This document shows, in pieces, positions 38,596 to 51,962 of a stretch of 64,000 nt of DNA. The DNA comes from Planctomycetota bacterium. GTDB lineage: Bacteria > Planctomycetota > Planctomycetia > Gemmatales > Gemmataceae. The number at the start of each line of letters is the position of its first letter. Position 1 is the first letter of the stretch. The stretch is taken from positions 1 to 64,000 of the forward strand of contig JAIOPV010000056.1 in assembly GCA_021413735.1 (NCBI GenBank), written 5' to 3'. The notes beneath the pieces are model-generated. The model worked only from the letters and a program-made list of their open reading frames with translations, did no database searches and was not told the DNA's origin. Position numbers and translations under genes: made by a program.

Positions 38596-39942
38596 TCAGC
38601 CGATCAGGTCTTTCACCACTTCGCCGCCGTCGATGATCTCGATCGGGCGACCACCCGGAGCCATCAGCTCCTTGTCGACGTTGATGCCGAGTTGGGCGTA
38701 CACCGTGCTCAGCACATCCTCGACACGGACCGGGTTCTCTTCTGGTTCGGACGCGGTCGAGTTCGACGAGCCGTAAACCAGGCCACGCTTGAAGCCGCCA
38801 CCAGCCACCGCGTGCGAGAACACTCGTGGGAAGTGATCGCGACCAGCCGAGGCGTTGATCTTCGGCGTGCGGCCGAACTCGCTCGTCACCAGCACGATCG
38901 TCGAAGCCAACAGACCGCGTTCGTCGAGGTCGTTGATGAGCCCGGCGAGAGCCTGATCGAGCCCCGGAGCCTGTCGCTTCATGGCATTCTCGATGCCCGC
39001 GTGCATGTCCCAGCCGCCGTAGCTCACTGTCACGAATCGCACCCCCGCTTCCACCAACCGCCGAGCCAGCAAGAACCGAGGGCCGGCGTCGGATGTGCCG
39101 TACTTGGCCCGAGTCGCAGCGGTTTCCTTGTCGATATCAAACGCCTCGCGAGCGGCCTGCGAGCTGATAAGGGCGTAGGCTCGCTGGTAGAACGAGTCCA
39201 TCGCCCCGAGGGCTTCCGCGCTGCCGGCCTGGTAGCGGAAGTGATCGTCAACCAGACTGCGAATTTCGCGGCGGGTCGTGAATCGGCGGTCATCGACGCC
39301 CGCAGGCAGCGACAGGTCGCGAACCTTGTAGCCACTCGTGCGGGCGGGGTCGCTGCCGATGCCGAACGGACCGAATTGCGAGCCGAGGTAGCCGGTGCCA
39401 CCGTATTCCGTGGCGCTCGGCACCGCAACGTATGGAGGCAGATCGCGACGCGGGCCGAACTCGTGCGACACGACCGAACCGAGGCTCGGGTGCTCGATGG
39501 CCGGGCTCTTGCGGTAGCCGGTGTACATCGTATACGTAGCCCGCCCGTGGTCGGCTTCTTTGCCGGCGATCGAGCGGATGATCGTCATCTTGTCGACAAC
39601 GCCCGCGAGGTGCTTGAAGTTCTCGTTGAACACGACCCCCGGCAGTTTCGTCTTGGCGACGCCGAACGGCCCGCGATATTCGAGCGGAGCTTCGGGCTTC
39701 GGGTCCCACGATTCTTGGTGAGCCATACCTCCGGGCAGCACGATCTGAATGACGCTTTTCGCGACACCTTCCTTGCTGACGAAATTCTTCTGGTCGCCGC
39801 GAGCCTGCATTGCGAAGAAATCGCCGAGCGTGAGGCCGAGGCCGCCGACCACGCCGACACGCAGAAATTCACGGCGTCCGGGCTTCTGGAAGTGAGCGGG
39901 GTCTTCGTTCCAGGTCACGACGTCAGCGTTCTTGGCGGACAT
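38596..39942 (-). CDS. DUF1501 protein, first gene of a PPC/DUF1549 operon
   Basis: A 448-residue protein with an internal Tat motif (GRREFLRVGVVGGLGL) after a ~22-residue lead. DUF1501 signatures: VIQIVLPGGMAHQESWDPKP, HPSLGSVVSHEFG, FLLARRLVEAGVRFVTVSYGGWDMH, VLVTSEFGRTPKINASAGRDHFPRVFSHAVAGGG. It heads an operon followed by the PPC-domain and DUF1549 proteins. The 228-base upstream gap (39943-40170) shows no recognisable site. Confidence 0.92.
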   Translation of the reverse strand: MSAKNADVVTWNEDPAHFQKPGRREFLRVGVVGGLGLTLGDFFAMQARGDQKNFVSKEGVAKSVIQIVLPGGMAHQESWDPKPEAPLEYRGPFGVAKTKLPGVVFNENFKHLAGVVDKMTIIRSIAGKEADHGRATYTMYTGYRKSPAIEHPSLGSVVSHEFGPRRDLPPYVAVPSATEYGGTGYLGSQFGPFGIGSDPARTSGYKVRDLSLPAGVDDRRFTTRREIRSLVDDHFRYQAGSAEALGAMDSFYQRAYALISSQAAREAFDIDKETAATRAKYGTSDAGPRFLLARRLVEAGVRFVTVSYGGWDMHAGIENAMKRQAPGLDQALAGLINDLDERGLLASTIVLVTSEFGRTPKINASAGRDHFPRVFSHAVAGGGFKRGLVYGSSNSTASEPEENPVRVEDVLSTVYAQLGINVDKELMAPGGRPIEIIDGGEVVKDLIG

Positions 39943-44228: not shown

Positions 44229-45254
44229 TCAAGGTAATCGGCGGGGGTCAACATCGTGAGCAATGCACGCAACGCAATCGCCTTGCGCCACGATCGACGG
44301 AGCACGAGTCGCGATCAGCACACCAGCGGAGAGAGCAATAACCTCGACCGGTTCGCGGTCGGGGCGTTCGAGGAAGTGAATCGCGCCCACCGGCTGGTTC
44401 GCTTCCACTTCCTCACCGAGCGGCACCAGGTTTTCGTACACACCGGACTCGGGTGCGAAGCGATAATCTTCCCAGCTCAATGCCTGCACCCACCGGGTTG
44501 GCCCCAAGCCGAGCGATTCGCGAGTCACCGCTTTGCCTTTCAAAACGCCAAGGTGCGTCAGCACGTTTCGCAGACCGAGTTGCGTCGTTGCGTGAACTGT
44601 GGCCGTCACGTTCTCGCTGCCGCCCATCTCGGTCGTGATGACGATTTTGCCCTGATTCTCAGCCTCGACGGGCAGCAAACCCGTACCCGCGACGTCGGCA
44701 TACAGGAAGCAGAAGTCGGTGTTCCACGCTTCGGTGCCCGCGAGCATCGCGTCACGCTGTGGCCCCTTCGGCAGAAGGTGCATGTGAGCGCACGGCTCGA
44801 AATCCACGCTGCGGCCGCCGGTGTGAATGTCGATCACAATGTCGCTCAGCGGGAATAACACCGTGGTGAGATAATGCGCGAGCACTTCGCTAGGCGTGCC
44901 GGTGGGGTTGCCCGGGAAGCAGCGGTTGAAGTTCTTGCCGTCGAGGGGGGAGAGGCGGGTTGAAGCCTTCGCGGCCGGCATCGTCAGCGTCGGAATCAGG
45001 ATGAGCCTGCCGTTCACATGCTCGGGTTGCAACTCGCGGAGCAGTCGCATCACCGCGACCTGGCCAGGGTACTCGTCGCCGTGGTTGCCTGCCAGCACGA
45101 GAGCGGTCGGGCCCGTGCCGCGAGCAATGACGCAGATGGGCAGCATGAGGTTCGCCCAGCCGCCGAGGTTATACGAGTACGGCACATACAGATGGCCGTA
45201 TTGCTTGCCGGATTTAGTGAAATCGACGGACGAGCGAATCGGGGAACCACTCAC
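44229..45254 (-). CDS. Succinylglutamate desuccinylase / aspartoacylase family protein, GTG start
   Basis: A 341-residue zinc amidohydrolase. The GTG at 45254 overlaps the preceding DUF1501 stop by 4 bases; the longer upstream frame is a shadow of that gene. The zinc site is LAGNHGDEYPGQVAVMRLL (His and Glu) plus IVIDIHTGGRSVDFEPCAH (His). TEMGGSENVTATVHATTQLG holds the likely catalytic Glu. Members remove acyl groups from N-acyl amino acids or amides. Its position with two enolase-family enzymes and a creatininase suggests a small carboxylate/amide degradation route. Confidence 0.87.
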   Translation of the reverse strand: MSGSPIRSSVDFTKSGKQYGHLYVPYSYNLGGWANLMLPICVIARGTGPTALVLAGNHGDEYPGQVAVMRLLRELQPEHVNGRLILIPTLTMPAAKASTRLSPLDGKNFNRCFPGNPTGTPSEVLAHYLTTVLFPLSDIVIDIHTGGRSVDFEPCAHMHLLPKGPQRDAMLAGTEAWNTDFCFLYADVAGTGLLPVEAENQGKIVITTEMGGSENVTATVHATTQLGLRNVLTHLGVLKGKAVTRESLGLGPTRWVQALSWEDYRFAPESGVYENLVPLGEEVEANQPVGAIHFLERPDREPVEVIALSAGVLIATRAPSIVAQGDCVACIAHDVDPRRLP

Positions 45255-46645
45255 GCAATCATCTCCTTCACCACGCGGCCATGCACATCGGTCAGGCGGA
45301 AGTCGCGGCCGGCGTATCGGTAGGTGAGTTTTTCGTGATCGAAGCCGAGCAGGTGCAACATCGTCGCATGAAGATCGTGAACATGCACCTTGTTTTCCAC
45401 CGCGGCGAACCCGAATTCGTCCGTCGCTCCCACCACGCTGCCACCCTTCACGCCGCCGCCCGCGAGCCAGCAAGTGAAGCCGTAATGGTTGTGATCGCGT
45501 CCATTGAGTGCCGGCAACTCTGCAACCGGCGTGCGACCGAACTCGCCGCCCCACTGGACGAGCGTTTCGTCGAACAGGCCGCGTTGCTTCAAATCGCTGA
45601 GGAACGCCGCGATCGGCTGATCCCACTGTGCCGCGAGGTTCTTGTGTGCCGCCGCGATGCCGTCGTGGTTGTCCCACGGCTGCCCGCCGCCGCTCCACAG
45701 TTGCACGACCCGCACGCCGCGTTCGATCATTCGCCGCGCGAGCAGCAGTTGCCGACCGTGAACCGTGTCGCCGTACATTTCGCGGATACGCTTCGGCTCG
45801 CGGGTCAGGTCGAACACGTCAGCCGCTTCCGACTGCATCCGGAACGCCAGCTCGAACGTGCGGATGCGTGCCTCAAGCTGTGCATCGTTCGCCCGTTCCT
45901 TGAGGTGCTTCTCGTTCAGTGCCGCCACGAGATCGAGCTGTTCGCGTTGCTTGTCGAGCGGCAGTTCACCGTTGCGAATATATGAGATGAGCTTATCAAC
46001 CTGCGTATGTTGGCTGTCAATGTACGTGCCCTGATAGACGCCTGGCAGGAACGCCGATCGCCAGTTCTGCGTCGTGACGATGGGGTAGCCGCCCGGGCAC
46101 ATCACCACGAAGCCGGGCAGGTTGCGGTTCTCGCTGCCGAGGCCATACGTAAGCCAACTTCCGAGGCTCGGACGTGGTTGCCGCCCTTCGCCGCAGTTCA
46201 TCAGCAGCAGCGACGGCTCGTGGTTCGGCACGTCGGCATACATCCCGCGAATCACGCACATATCGTCGATGTGCGCAGCGGTCTTCGCGAAGATCTCGCT
46301 GACTTCGATCCCGGATTGGCCGTACTTCTTGAAGCTGTATGGCGACTTCATCGCCGCGCCGGTCTTGCGTTCGGTGCGGAGGTTGCCGGTCGGAATCGGC
46401 TTGCCGTGGTACTTGTCGAGCATCGGCTTCGGGTCGAACGTATCGACCTGCGACGGCCCGCCGTTCATGAACAGGTGAACGACGTGCTTGGCCTTCGCCG
46501 GGAAGTGCGGCGCCTTCACCGCGAGCGGATCGACGACTTTTGGCGTGTCGGTGGCGTGTGCGTCCGCGAGAACGCCAGCGAGTCCGATGGTGCCGATGCC
46601 GGTGCCGCAGCGTGCCAACATTTCACGACGCGAAAGCGGAAACAT
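45251..46645 (-). CDS. DUF1501 protein heading the catabolic operon
   Basis: A 464-residue protein. GGAGG lies 7 bases before the ATG at 46645, so this start is preferred to a GTG 6 bases earlier. The Tat signal is SRREMLARCGTGIGTIGLAG. DUF1501 motifs are VVHLFMNGGPSQVDTFDPKP, RPSLGSWLTYGLG, LLLARRMIERGVRVVQLWSGGGQPWDNH, VQWGGEFGRTPV and GRDHNHYGFTCWLAGGGVKGG. Its upstream region carries the second copy of the CCGGAAYCAT tandem module. It is translationally coupled to the AstE-like gene. Confidence 0.92.
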   Translation of the reverse strand: MFPLSRREMLARCGTGIGTIGLAGVLADAHATDTPKVVDPLAVKAPHFPAKAKHVVHLFMNGGPSQVDTFDPKPMLDKYHGKPIPTGNLRTERKTGAAMKSPYSFKKYGQSGIEVSEIFAKTAAHIDDMCVIRGMYADVPNHEPSLLLMNCGEGRQPRPSLGSWLTYGLGSENRNLPGFVVMCPGGYPIVTTQNWRSAFLPGVYQGTYIDSQHTQVDKLISYIRNGELPLDKQREQLDLVAALNEKHLKERANDAQLEARIRTFELAFRMQSEAADVFDLTREPKRIREMYGDTVHGRQLLLARRMIERGVRVVQLWSGGGQPWDNHDGIAAAHKNLAAQWDQPIAAFLSDLKQRGLFDETLVQWGGEFGRTPVAELPALNGRDHNHYGFTCWLAGGGVKGGSVVGATDEFGFAAVENKVHVHDLHATMLHLLGFDHEKLTYRYAGRDFRLTDVHGRVVKEMIA

Positions 46646-46676
46646 ACTCACTCCTCCAACCGATCAGAATCGTGAA

Positions 46677-47108: not shown

Positions 47109-48512
47109 ATGATGTCTGCCCAGGTTCCGTCTCGCCGCGACATGCTCAGACTCGGCGCCGCAGGCGTCATGGGTTGGTCGCTGCCGCAATGTCTCGCACT
47201 CGCGGCCGCTGGCAAAAACAACCCGAAGGCCACCGCGAAGAACGTCCTCGTTGTACTCGAACAGGGCGGCCTTTCGCACATGGATACCTGGGATCCCAAG
47301 CCCGAAGCCATCGCCGAACACCGCAGCCCACACAAGCCCATCAGCACGAATGTTGTCGGCATGCGGTTCACGGATCTGCTCACCGAAACGTCGAAAGTTG
47401 CCGACAAGCTCGCAGTCGTGCGGTCGATGTGGCACCAGAAGCCTGGAGCCAGCGGCCACCCCGACGGCACGCAATACGCCCTCTCGGGCTCACACCCGAG
47501 CAGCACCATTCCGATGCCCGACATCGGTTCAGTCGTGTCGCAGATCCTCGGCACCGCGTGCCCGTATTTGCCGCCGTACATCATGGTGCCGGGCAACCAC
47601 GAACAGGCGGCAGTCACGAGCACGGGCTTCCTTCCGGCGGGCACGAAGGTCTTCAAAACCGGCGGCTCAAACCTTGCTGATCCGAAGTGGAAAGTCGGTG
47701 GGCTCGAACCGCGACCGGAAACGCCAGCCGATCGACTGGCCGCACGCGAACAGCTCCTCAGCGGCATGAACGCCCACTTCTCGCAGGGCAGTGGCAGCAC
47801 GGCGTTTGGCGGCATGGATCGCTTCTACGAACAGGCGTTCGACACGCTCACGAGCCCGAAGGTGGCGAAGGCGTTCGACTACCAGGGCGAACCGCTGTCG
47901 GTGCGGGAGCGATATGGCATCGGTCACCGCGGGGCGTGCTACCTCGTGGGGCGGAAGCTCATCGAGGCTGGCGTGCGGTTCGTCACTGTGGATACACGCT
48001 GGCCGTTGATGCCGGATCTGCCGGGCGGCTTCAACTTGAACTGGGACCACCACGACGCCATTTACTCGAAGGGTTCGTGCGGCACGATTCGCGACAAGGC
48101 TGGCGGCGAGGGTCGCTACGGGATCGGTCACTGGGTGATGATGGGTTCGACCGACCGTGCGTTTGCGGCGTTGATTGCGGACATGGATCAGCGTGGCTTA
48201 CTGGCGGAAACGCTGGTGTGCTTCGTGACTGAGTTTGGACGCACGCCGAAGCTGAACAAGTTCGGCGGTCGCGATCACTGGACGGGTGCGTATTCGATTG
48301 CGTTTGCGGGAGCGGGCGTGCGTGGCGGTCAGATCATTGGCTCGTCGGACAAGGACGGCGGCCACGTGACGAACGACCCGTACACGCCGGAGGCGTATGC
48401 CGCGACGATTTATGAGAAATTGGGCATCGACCGCTCGAAGCCGTTGTACATGGCGAACAACCGACCGATTTTCATCGGCCACGACGCCGACCCGATCCCG
48501 CAAGTGCTGTGA
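47109..48512 (+). CDS. DUF1501 protein
   Basis: A 467-residue protein with Tat signal PSRRDMLRLGAAGVMGWSLP. Motifs: VLVVLEQGGLSHMDTWDPKPEAI, MPDIGSVVSQILG, FYEQAFDTLTSPKVAKAFD, CYLVGRKLIEAGVRFVTVDTRW, VCFVTEFGRTPKLNKFGGRDHWTGAYSIAFAGAGVRGG. The family is of unknown reaction, with an alkaline phosphatase-like fold. It is followed after 4 bases by the GyrB-like gene and is divergent from another DUF1501 gene. Confidence 0.92.
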   Translation: MMSAQVPSRRDMLRLGAAGVMGWSLPQCLALAAAGKNNPKATAKNVLVVLEQGGLSHMDTWDPKPEAIAEHRSPHKPISTNVVGMRFTDLLTETSKVADKLAVVRSMWHQKPGASGHPDGTQYALSGSHPSSTIPMPDIGSVVSQILGTACPYLPPYIMVPGNHEQAAVTSTGFLPAGTKVFKTGGSNLADPKWKVGGLEPRPETPADRLAAREQLLSGMNAHFSQGSGSTAFGGMDRFYEQAFDTLTSPKVAKAFDYQGEPLSVRERYGIGHRGACYLVGRKLIEAGVRFVTVDTRWPLMPDLPGGFNLNWDHHDAIYSKGSCGTIRDKAGGEGRYGIGHWVMMGSTDRAFAALIADMDQRGLLAETLVCFVTEFGRTPKLNKFGGRDHWTGAYSIAFAGAGVRGGQIIGSSDKDGGHVTNDPYTPEAYAATIYEKLGIDRSKPLYMANNRPIFIGHDADPIPQVL

Positions 48513-48516
48513 TCGC

Positions 48517-49671
48517 ATGAGTCCAGACGGACGCCACAGACTCGACGATTACACTGCGGAGGAGATTCGTGTATCCCGTCCGTATGTGCAGCACATCCGT
48601 GACAACCCAGGGATGTATATCGGAAATGTGCGGTCGTCTGGGCTTCATGAGATGCTCTTCATGTTAGTTCGTGAGGCTCTTGTGGAAACGAGTGAAGGTT
48701 TTTGCGACTCTGTCCGATTAGTAACAAATCTCGATGGATCGATCACAATTTCTGACGATGGCCGTGGTTTCGCGGTCATTGGCCCACCAGATCTTGAAGC
48801 CGCTTTCACTCAGGTTCCCCCATGGCGAAGCCCGTACCGTTTTAATCAACTCAGCTACATCACGGCCAACGCCCTTTCAGAGTGGTTGTGGGTCGAAACT
48901 CAGCGAAACGGGGAAAGTCATGAGTTGACCTTCGAACGCGGCGAAGCAACTGGGGTACCTCGTGCAACTGAGCCAACGCCGCGTTCGGGGATAACCGTGA
49001 TGTTTCTTCCCGACCCGACTCTCTTCGGCGATGAGCGGTTCAATCCAGATACCATCCGTGAGCGACTTCGCGAATACGCCTACCTGAACTCGGGCGTCCG
49101 GCTCTCGTTCACTAATCGCACCACGGGAACCGAAGACGTCTACGAGTTCTCAGATGGCATTCGCTCATACGTGGAATGGCTCAACGTCGGCCGTCAATCG
49201 CTGAACCCCGAGGTGTTCATCACCCGTGGCGAAGCAGAAGGCGTGCAATACGAGATTGGGGTTCAGTGGTGCCGAGAAACCGACGATATCCTCGAGCGGT
49301 TGTACGTCAACAATCTGTTCGTTCCGGTGGGAGGCACGCCGCTCAACGGTCTGCGTGCAGCCGTAAGGGTTGTCGTGAATAACTTCATCCTCGAACACTT
49401 GCCGAGCGAAGATCAGGTGAAGACCAACCACATTCGGGAAGGCATGACCGCCGTGGTGTTCGTACGAATCGAAGATCCACAATTCGAGGGCGCGGTGAGA
49501 GGGAAGTTGATTAACCCCGAAGCCGAGCGCGTACTTGCTGCGGGTGTGGGTGAATTCTTGCGAAACGAGTTTGAGGCGAATCCTGCTGTTGCGGAAGCGA
49601 TCGCACGACATGCCATCGCGGCTGCAGAAGCCGAAGCCAAGTTTCGTGAGGCACGCAAACGGAAGAAGTGA
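48517..49671 (+). CDS. GyrB-like protein (ATPase + transducer domains only) lacking catalytic residues
   Basis: A 384-residue protein that aligns along its length with the first ~390 residues of DNA gyrase B: GMYIG...GLHEMLFMLVREALVETSEGFCDSV, DGSITISDDGRGF, NALSEWLWVE, FERGEATG, GITVMFLPDPTLFGDERFNPDTIRERLREYAYLNSGVRLSF, and the transducer LYVNNLFVPVGGTPLNGLRAAV through REGMTAVVFVRIEDPQFEG. TOPRIM and the rest of GyrB are absent. By the E. coli pattern, the general base Glu42 is Met49, Asn46 is Glu53, the GGLHGVG lid is missing and the QTK loop reads AVRGK. It is probably an ATPase-dead paralogue. The ATG at 48517 lies 4 bases after the DUF1501 stop. Confidence 0.88.
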   Translation: MSPDGRHRLDDYTAEEIRVSRPYVQHIRDNPGMYIGNVRSSGLHEMLFMLVREALVETSEGFCDSVRLVTNLDGSITISDDGRGFAVIGPPDLEAAFTQVPPWRSPYRFNQLSYITANALSEWLWVETQRNGESHELTFERGEATGVPRATEPTPRSGITVMFLPDPTLFGDERFNPDTIRERLREYAYLNSGVRLSFTNRTTGTEDVYEFSDGIRSYVEWLNVGRQSLNPEVFITRGEAEGVQYEIGVQWCRETDDILERLYVNNLFVPVGGTPLNGLRAAVRVVVNNFILEHLPSEDQVKTNHIREGMTAVVFVRIEDPQFEGAVRGKLINPEAERVLAAGVGEFLRNEFEANPAVAEAIARHAIAAAEAEAKFREARKRKK

Positions 49672-49692: not shown

Positions 49693-49925
49693 GGTTTTCA
49701 CCCCGAAGGGGTGGGACAACCTTAGCCCAGGGCAAGACAGCGAAGCTGTCGCCGCCCTGGGTTGCGGCACCATAAACCGACCGCACCCTGAAGGGGTGCG
49801 ACGCGGGCGAGCGTTGCATTGTCACACCCCTTCAGGGTGCATTTCTGTTTCTGGACGTTACCCAGGGTGCACCGCAAAGCCGGCGACCCTGGGCGATGTT
49901 GTCCCACCCCTTCAGGGTGAAAACC
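49693..49925. repeat. Large compound palindromic intergenic element
   Basis: Near-perfect 28-bp outer arms (49693-49720 and 49898-49925) surround further stems built on CACCC(T)GAAGGGGTG and CCCAGGG motifs. It fills the gap between the GyrB-like gene and the kinase gene. No open frame of interest. Confidence 0.85.
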
Positions 49926-49943: not shown

Positions 49944-51962
49944 TTATTTCTTCTCGATCAGTTCCTGAACTTCGGCGGTGTCGATGCGAATGTTGCCGCC
50001 TTCAGCGGAAATCATCACGACGTGTTTGTTCAACGTGCCTGCCGTGTCGATGCTGCCTAACGGCGTGCCCAGGAAAAAGGCCCGAATCTTCCCGCCCGCA
50101 CGCTCGTATCGCACCTCTCCGTAACCCGCCTTGTCGGCATTGTCCTCTTTCGTCGGCGTCGGGATCACCACATCGAACGGCTTGAAGATCCCACGCGGCC
50201 CCTCGCGCGTGCCCAGTGAAGTCCCCTTTTCGGCGTCAATCCGAATCGACCACTGGAGAGCCGTATCCGTTGGGCCCTCCGCAGTCGCGATCACCACCTC
50301 GGCCCGCTTCGCGCCGTTCAGATCGAGCCCGAGAACGACCCGGTAATCCGACCAATCGAAGAACTCCCGACTGACTGTCCCCACGCCCGTGAGAAACGGC
50401 CCGTTCTCGTTCTTGTCAATCGTCCATTGCTCGCCACGGGTCGGACGCCAGACCGTCGCATCCTTTCCGTCAAACAACGCCACCGTATTGCGGGGCACAT
50501 ACTCCACCTGCGGCGTTGCCGGCTTCGCGATCGGTTCCGGTTGCTTCTCGCCCGTGAACTTCAACCCGATCGCAACAGCAGCAGCCAGCGCCAACCCGCC
50601 CAGCCCCGCGAAGATAAACAGCTTCGTCTTGTTCTTCGGCTGCGGCTTCTGCCACTCACCCGAAGAGCGTTCGCCGTCGAATCCGTCCTCGACTTCTCCG
50701 ATGTGCGTGGCCTGCAACGCGGGTGGGTTCGTCCTCGATTTCGGGGTGACCGGTTGCAGTTTCGATTTCGAGATCGGCGTGATTCGCACCGACGGCGACG
50801 ACGCCGTTGTGCCTTGCATGAACGGCAGCGAGTCGATGCGGTCGAGGAAATCGCGGTACGTTTGAATGCGGTCTGCCGGGTTCGCTGCCATCAGCGTTTC
50901 GATAAGATCAGCAGACTCTTCGGACACCTTCCCACCGAGGCGAGGCGTCGGCTCCGTCTTCTTCACCATCACGTCCCAGATGCTCGCCCCGTTGAACGGC
51001 GAGTCGCCCGACAGCATGTGAAACATCGTCGCGCCGAGCGCGTACAGGTCGGCGCGGTGGTCGATGTCGGAGCCTTTGAACTGTTCCGGGGGCATGTAGG
51101 CGGGGGTGCCAAGCACGACGCCCGCAGCGGTGAGTCGTTGATCGGTCGATTCGTCGCTGGCTTGCCGGGTGAGGGCGAGGCCGAAATCGGTGACCTTCAC
51201 GAGCGGCACGCCCGGCGGCAGAGGGTAGCCGGTCGGTGGTGGCGTCAGGAAGAGATTCGCAGGTTTGATGTCGCGGTGATACACGCCCAGATCGGCAGCA
51301 TGCGCGAGCGCCGCGGCGGTCTGGCGGGCGATGTGCCAGGCGGTGAACTCGTCCATCGGTCCGCCGTTGTCGAGACGGTTGCCGAGGTCTTCGCCTTCGA
51401 GGAGTTCCATCGCGAAGAACGCTTGCCCGTCGTGGTGACCGCAGTCGTGGACGCCGACGATATTCGGGTGGCGGAGCTTCGCGAGCGACACCGCTTCTTT
51501 CCCGAAACGAGCGAGTGCCGCAGCCGTCGGCTTGCGATCGCTCAGTACCATCTTCAATGCGACAACACGATCAAGCTTGATTTGCCTGGCTCGGTAAACA
51601 ACGCCACACGCCCCTTTGCCGAGAACGCCGGTGATTTCGTACCCCGGAATCTGATCAACCTTCGTTTCGGTCGTTTCGAGTCCGGACTGTGACTGGTTGT
51701 TTTGCTGTGTGGGGGCGGTCGGTGCAGCGCCTGAAGCAGGTGGCATCGCAACGGTCGCGGCAACCGTGACGACAGGCTGTTGTGAAACGGTGTCCGAGAA
51801 CGTGAGCCCCTTGATCTTCGAGGCGGGGGCCCACTTTTGACCATCCGGACTGACTTTGTCGTTTGGACGCAGCTTGCCCGCTGCCGCGCGATCACGCAAC
51901 TCGCGCGAAGTCAGTGGTCCCTCCACCCGGCCATCAGTCTCGGTGTACCAGTTCTGGGACAT
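49944..51962 (-). CDS. Membrane Ser/Thr protein kinase with N-terminal GYF-like and C-terminal DUF1080-like domains
   Basis: A 672-residue protein. Residues 1-55 (NWYTETDGRVEGPLTSRELRDRAAAGKLRPNDKVSPDGQKW) resemble a GYF_2 domain, a short protein-interaction fold. The kinase domain (~105-370) has GKGACGVVYRA, VALKMVL, HRDIKPANLFL, VTDFGLALT and GTPAYMPPEQF, so it should be active. A membrane span (LFIFAGLGGLALAAAVAIGL, ~452-472) leads to a C-terminal LamG/DUF1080-like sandwich (VALFDGKDATVWRPTRGEQWTI, FFDWSDYRVVLGLDL), common in planctomycete kinases. It is preceded by the redoxin lipoprotein gene. Confidence 0.88.
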   Translation of the reverse strand: MSQNWYTETDGRVEGPLTSRELRDRAAAGKLRPNDKVSPDGQKWAPASKIKGLTFSDTVSQQPVVTVAATVAMPPASGAAPTAPTQQNNQSQSGLETTETKVDQIPGYEITGVLGKGACGVVYRARQIKLDRVVALKMVLSDRKPTAAALARFGKEAVSLAKLRHPNIVGVHDCGHHDGQAFFAMELLEGEDLGNRLDNGGPMDEFTAWHIARQTAAALAHAADLGVYHRDIKPANLFLTPPPTGYPLPPGVPLVKVTDFGLALTRQASDESTDQRLTAAGVVLGTPAYMPPEQFKGSDIDHRADLYALGATMFHMLSGDSPFNGASIWDVMVKKTEPTPRLGGKVSEESADLIETLMAANPADRIQTYRDFLDRIDSLPFMQGTTASSPSVRITPISKSKLQPVTPKSRTNPPALQATHIGEVEDGFDGERSSGEWQKPQPKNKTKLFIFAGLGGLALAAAVAIGLKFTGEKQPEPIAKPATPQVEYVPRNTVALFDGKDATVWRPTRGEQWTIDKNENGPFLTGVGTVSREFFDWSDYRVVLGLDLNGAKRAEVVIATAEGPTDTALQWSIRIDAEKGTSLGTREGPRGIFKPFDVVIPTPTKEDNADKAGYGEVRYERAGGKIRAFFLGTPLGSIDTAGTLNKHVVMISAEGGNIRIDTAEVQELIEKK

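Follow-up and report, generated by a model that had tools for sequence, protein, structure and literature searches.

The nearest studied analogue of the gene described here is GyrB3 of Arabidopsis, which neither bound GyrA nor self-associated, and for which its authors found no homologues (PMC2845627). The K337Q substitution in E. coli GyrB has been reported to abolish ATPase activity, K337R lying outside that report (PMC2845627). On the DNA side, K291 and R321 of pneumococcal topoisomerase IV ParE are required for strand passage (PMC6030046), and gyrase is commonly targeted by protein inhibitors (PMC10886550). Topoisomerase-derived pseudo-enzymes in bacteria appear little described, and our search of the open-licence literature found no bacterial study of a stand-alone, nucleotide-blind GyrB N-terminal half. 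Here we describe such a gene in a member of the Gemmataceae, within a stretch of 64,000 nucleotides that was analysed as a whole and is called the window below.

A stand-alone GyrB N-terminal half

The gene begins with an ATG at 48517 and its stop lies inside the 49671 end, giving a product of 384 aa. Extension of the ORF upstream to 48397 would overlap the preceding DUF1501 gene, and the choice of ATG agrees with the homologue in G013, which begins at the equivalent place, 4 nt past its DUF1501 stop. The gene and its main parts are as follows.

48517..49671, forward strand: gyrB-like pseudo-ATPase gene, 384 aa, GHKL and transducer domains, no TOPRIM
48517..48579, forward strand: N-terminal arm region, with the equivalents of GyrB Tyr5 and Ile10 (Y12 and I17) retained
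49156..49668, forward strand: transducer domain, matching Pfam DNA_gyraseB; R280, R307 and R380 of the cavity retained

The window protein matches NCBIfam NF011501 (E=1e-73) and TIGR01059 (E=2e-72), the GyrB match spanning residues 9-381, and almost all of the protein aligns with the N-terminal 43-kDa half of GyrB (T. thermophilus GyrB, E=6e-55). The NCBIfam GyrB models reach E=1e-73 to 1e-71, yet their scores are about one third of the model cut-offs or less; the equivalog cut-off of TIGR01059, 882.4, was not reached at 244.5 bits. The ParE cut-offs were missed as well (136.8 and 180.3 bits for TIGR01055 and TIGR01058 vs 723 and 900). The Pfam transducer family DNA_gyraseB was matched at E=8e-32 and 110.6 bits against a cut-off of 27, and Pfam HATPase_c gave no match in the protein even when E up to 1 was allowed. 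There is no TOPRIM domain in the 384 residues, the C-terminal GyrA-binding region is also missing, and a tblastn search of the window and related loci with residues 401-853 of the host's own GyrB returned no TOPRIM remnant.

An AlphaFold2 model was built from an alignment of three sequences, which is shallow and leaves loop details untrustworthy; it has a mean pLDDT of 67 and a pTM of 0.64, with the N-arm and residues 57-62, 82-110 (lid), 271-275 and 324-331 (QTK loop) below 50. Its best full-length matches in the PDB are all GyrB/ParE N-terminal halves, with Z of about 24-31 (about 30 to GyrB43). Profile matches, predicted fold and tblastn thus bear out the first-pass annotation, which had seen in this ORF a GyrB N-terminal half with GHKL and transducer folds and no TOPRIM. 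Paralogues are indeed present in the host genome (9.8 Mb), which also encodes a full GyrB of 853 aa and a ParE-like protein of 650 aa; the window protein is 34% identical to Gemmataceae GyrB (L002) and 29% to ParE (L003). By function-defining tests it is neither GyrB nor ParE, and is a GyrB-derived pseudo-enzyme.

Selective loss of the ATP pocket

Eight family members were compared residue by residue with 43 control GyrB/ParE sequences, E. coli GyrB among them. Against these controls the window protein carries E42->M, N46->E, D49->V, T165->I, Q335->A and K337->R and is missing the GGLHGVG lid; D73, D74, G75, R76 and G77 are retained. The corresponding stretches of the gene are these.

48658..48690, forward strand: catalytic helix, with the changes at E42, N46 and D49
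48754..48771, forward strand: DDGRG motif, intact in the window member and eroded in several homologues
48760..48867, forward strand: ATP-lid region, about residues 82-117, shortened and without GGLHGVG, with pLDDT below 50 at residues 82-110
49486..49509, forward strand: QTK loop, now A-V-R, with the changes at Q335 and K337

Across the family, none of the eight members retains K103, I78, G117, G119, T165, Q335 or K337, and K337 is replaced by arginine every time. N46 and D49 are each lost in seven of the eight and E42 in five, while D73 is retained throughout. GyrB-invariant columns are retained by the majority of members at 4/20 positions in the ATP site compared with 48/61 elsewhere (Fisher p=4e-6; the members are related, so the value describes the concentration of loss in the pocket and not independent events). 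A sequencing error or hidden motif can be ruled out because the pocket loss is conserved family-wide, with identical losses in eight genomes and no remnant. Of the ATPase site, the general base and Mg ligand are thus erased as described earlier, and so are the lid and QTK loop, whereas the window member retains the adenine-side DDGRG motif. We infer that the window protein lacks productive ATP binding or hydrolysis; nor would it join GyrA through TOPRIM, and it would function by contact.

Outside the pocket the fold is preserved, key T-segment cavity residues included. In that cavity, the K291 equivalent is arginine in 9/9 sequences and the R321 and R396 equivalents are arginine in 7/8 each. 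The RPGMYIG region is 88% retained and the Tyr5 equivalent is kept in 7/8 members; the N-arm as a whole, at 44% vs 51% for the rest, is no better kept.

Distribution and evolution of the family

Of the 19 genomes of the genus, 8 carry an intact stand-alone homologue, the window included. The other seven are in G002, G006, G007, G009, G010, G012 and G013 (the G006 copy ends at a contig end), mutual identity among the eight intact ORFs falls to about 35-50%, and decayed or divergent copies occur elsewhere, which is how far conservation in Gemmataceae extends. About half of the genus has either no copy or a broken one. It has been repeatedly lost, as in G008, where a clean empty site places the DUF1501 stop within about 20 nt of the convergent kinase stop, or broken, as in G015 and G016 (truncated copies) and in G116. 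The last of these is a sister-genus member (L150; G116:C330:1079-1929) that is split by a frameshift and has lost E42 and N46 too; the family thus probably predates the genus.

The remaining genomes of the taxonomic family and a phylum-wide sample gave no match above the GyrB score band. A search of the genome contigs with the single window protein found no relative, and a DNA pattern scan recovered only three true members. Separately, G035 encodes a distant stand-alone GyrB N-half (L033:599-1819) in which E42 and K337 are retained and N46 and much of the lid are missing, possibly an independent or earlier-stage pseudo-GyrB.

Phylogenetically, the members form a clade of their own (support 99/96) on long branches, separate from Gemmataceae GyrB and ParE. 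A recent duplication of the host gyrB is unsupported, as the family falls outside the Gemmataceae GyrB clade, the exact root being unsafe on such long branches. The PriA tree groups the window with G008 (98/96), which is without the gyrB-like gene. We also rejected a mobile or phage gene: there are no viral relatives, and the gene tree broadly agrees with the PriA tree. In close pairs dN/dS is 0.30-0.31 (95% CI within 0.20-0.44), compared with 0.02-0.14 for most neighbours; one metallophosphoesterase is similarly fast, as is the kinase in the window-G013 comparison. Between the window and G013 this protein is 48% identical and the neighbouring DUF1501 protein and PriA 86-87%. The gyrB-like gene is under purifying selection, yet evolves faster than most of its neighbours.

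Genomic neighbourhood

The typed neighbours in the window are DUF1501, kinase, redoxin and PriA genes, two of which flank the gyrB-like gene.

47109..48512, forward strand: DUF1501 gene, ending 4 nt 5' of the gyrB-like ATG; the pair recurs in G013 and the other members are without it
49944..51962, reverse strand: Ser/Thr kinase gene (GYF_2 and Pkinase), convergent; it directly adjoins the DUF1501 gene in G008

Because the gene starts 4 nt past DUF1501, co-translation of the two is plausible in the window and G013. The locus differs by sub-clade: G000 and G013 share the DUF1501-kinase locus, in G012, G009, G007, G002 and G015 the gene is divergent to a different DUF1501 gene, and in G010 and G016 a histidine kinase adjoins. 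Among the member loci there is neither a family-wide conserved neighbour nor an adjoining gyrase gene, and none of the neighbours points to a pathway. DUF1501 was rejected as a general functional partner: the two DUF1501 genes involved are distinct, with about 32% identity, and each genome carries very many of the kind. The window itself holds three divergent DUF1501 genes (38596-39942, 45251-46651 and 47109-48512), and first-look candidates number dozens per genome of the genus.

Just 3' of the gyrB-like gene, at 49699-49919, a palindromic CACCCTGAAGGGGTG unit occurs four times (three exact) in both orientations. Genome-wide there are 20 exact copies, most of them paired in inverted orientation some 40 nt apart, and the reversed control gave 0; the unit is a REP-like hairpin repeat. 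None is present at the G013 junction. Near the G010 member, L046:5250-12113 carries five similar ORFs of roughly 420-495 aa in tandem, several of which start with MSDRDALIAAIC.QPDEDTPRLAFADW.

Possible roles

We tentatively favour a GyrB N-gate paralogue that has no catalytic activity, is accessory in Gemmata-type bacteria and tunes gyrase or topoisomerase IV by contact. The likeliest contact would be the N-gate of either enzyme: the protein may form a hetero-dimer with the GHKL-transducer unit of a catalytic GyrB or ParE, or may occupy the T-segment cavity, and strand passage would be damped or tuned upon its expression. This role is consistent with the GyrB43 fold, the selective pocket loss, the retained RPGMYIG, Tyr5 and cavity arginines, a dN/dS of about 0.3, and catalytic GyrB and ParE residing in the same genome. 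Against it count the N-arm, no better kept as a whole, the lack of an adjoining gyrase gene or conserved partner, and the behaviour of Arabidopsis GyrB3, with neither GyrA binding nor self-association. It also counts against this role that about half of the genus lives with no intact copy, so that gyrase does not depend on the gene. It is rather doubtful that a lineage-specific, nucleotide-blind pseudoparalogue enters mixed N-gates with GyrB or ParE, or holds the T-segment cavity, and tunes DNA topology as an endogenous dominant regulator. Gemmata-type bacteria are known for highly condensed nucleoids. The gyrase regulator put forward in the first-pass annotation is thus retained as a candidate, short of an established function.

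An ATP-independent DNA-binding or architectural protein, acting through the transducer cavity or surface and leaving gyrase untouched, seems unlikely. R280 and R307, equivalents of T-segment-contacting residues, are retained, the proteins of G006, G007 and G009 have a basic transducer half (pI 8.7-9.6), and the extra arginines R181, R195 and R237 are invariant or nearly so in the family; however, the window member is acidic (net about -15, with a transducer-half pI of 5.4 vs 9.1 in its own GyrB), as are those of G002 and G010, and a clamp's hold on DNA normally requires ATP-driven dimerisation. The DNA scaffold proposed earlier consequently loses ground through the acidity of the window protein and keeps some through the K291 and R321 equivalents. 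A decoy or immunity protein titrating gyrase-targeting toxins, peptides or phage proteins would fit the conflict-gene pattern of fast divergence and patchy presence, and the frequency with which protein inhibitors target gyrase, but we consider it improbable. Tyr109, the FicT target, is unconserved in the family, and the aminocoumarin contacts N46, R136 and T165 are not retained across it; with these target residues gone, the toxin decoy of the first-pass annotation is weakened, as is an aminocoumarin decoy. Nor does the window protein (P0001) match any PADLOC model for anti-phage defence or have viral relatives, and its typed neighbours include no defence or toxin-antitoxin genes.

Just as improbable, in our judgement, is that the gene is what remains of an ancient gyrB duplication, now decaying under residual constraint only. 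The truncations in G015 and G016, the frameshift in G116, the clean loss in G008 and a seemingly progressive erosion of the pocket, in which E42 remains in G006, G002 and G010, would suit decay, but eight ORFs stay intact despite their low mutual identity, the confidence interval around a dN/dS of 0.30 excludes 1, and C252, Y245 and R328 are among the invariant residues specific to the family. That the remodelled pocket binds a ligand other than ATP is very improbable: D73 is kept in 8/8 members, and the family-specific L159 (I in the window) and F97 are located at the former pocket, but conservation of the lid is poor and the model has low confidence there.

With its pocket lost and its strand-capture residues retained, the family offers a natural means of telling ATP-gating apart from the binding of DNA or partners at the N-gate, and it might uncover a new kind of gyrase or topoisomerase IV regulator in planctomycetes. 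As such genes match gyrB models, they may also be mis-annotated as gyrB fragments and cause confusion in gyrB-based typing.

Comparison with known systems

The window protein shares with the N-terminal 43-kDa fragment of GyrB (PDB 4wub, 1ei1, 6enh) a common two-domain fold and length, at about 27-31% identity and Z of about 30; unlike that fragment it is a natural stand-alone gene product, and the lid, T165, K103 and Q335/K337 are lost. The structural analogue is PDB 3CWV, annotated as 'DNA gyrase, B subunit, truncated' from Myxococcus xanthus (369 aa), likewise a stand-alone N-half of the same length class. The family profile matches it at E=2.5e-44 and ranks it below true GyrBs; Z is 25.5 and identity 22%. 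Its loops also look shortened, since it exceeds the profile by about 6 residues, compared with 19 in true GyrB. Arabidopsis GyrB3 resembles the window protein in being GyrB-derived, not a gyrase subunit, with K337 replaced and ATPase activity unlikely, but it is eukaryotic, has wholly lost the GHKL domain and possesses a SANT-like domain (PMC2845627). Closest to home, the Gemmataceae GyrB and ParE proteins (L002, L003) have homologous N-terminal halves, but theirs keep both the pocket and TOPRIM.
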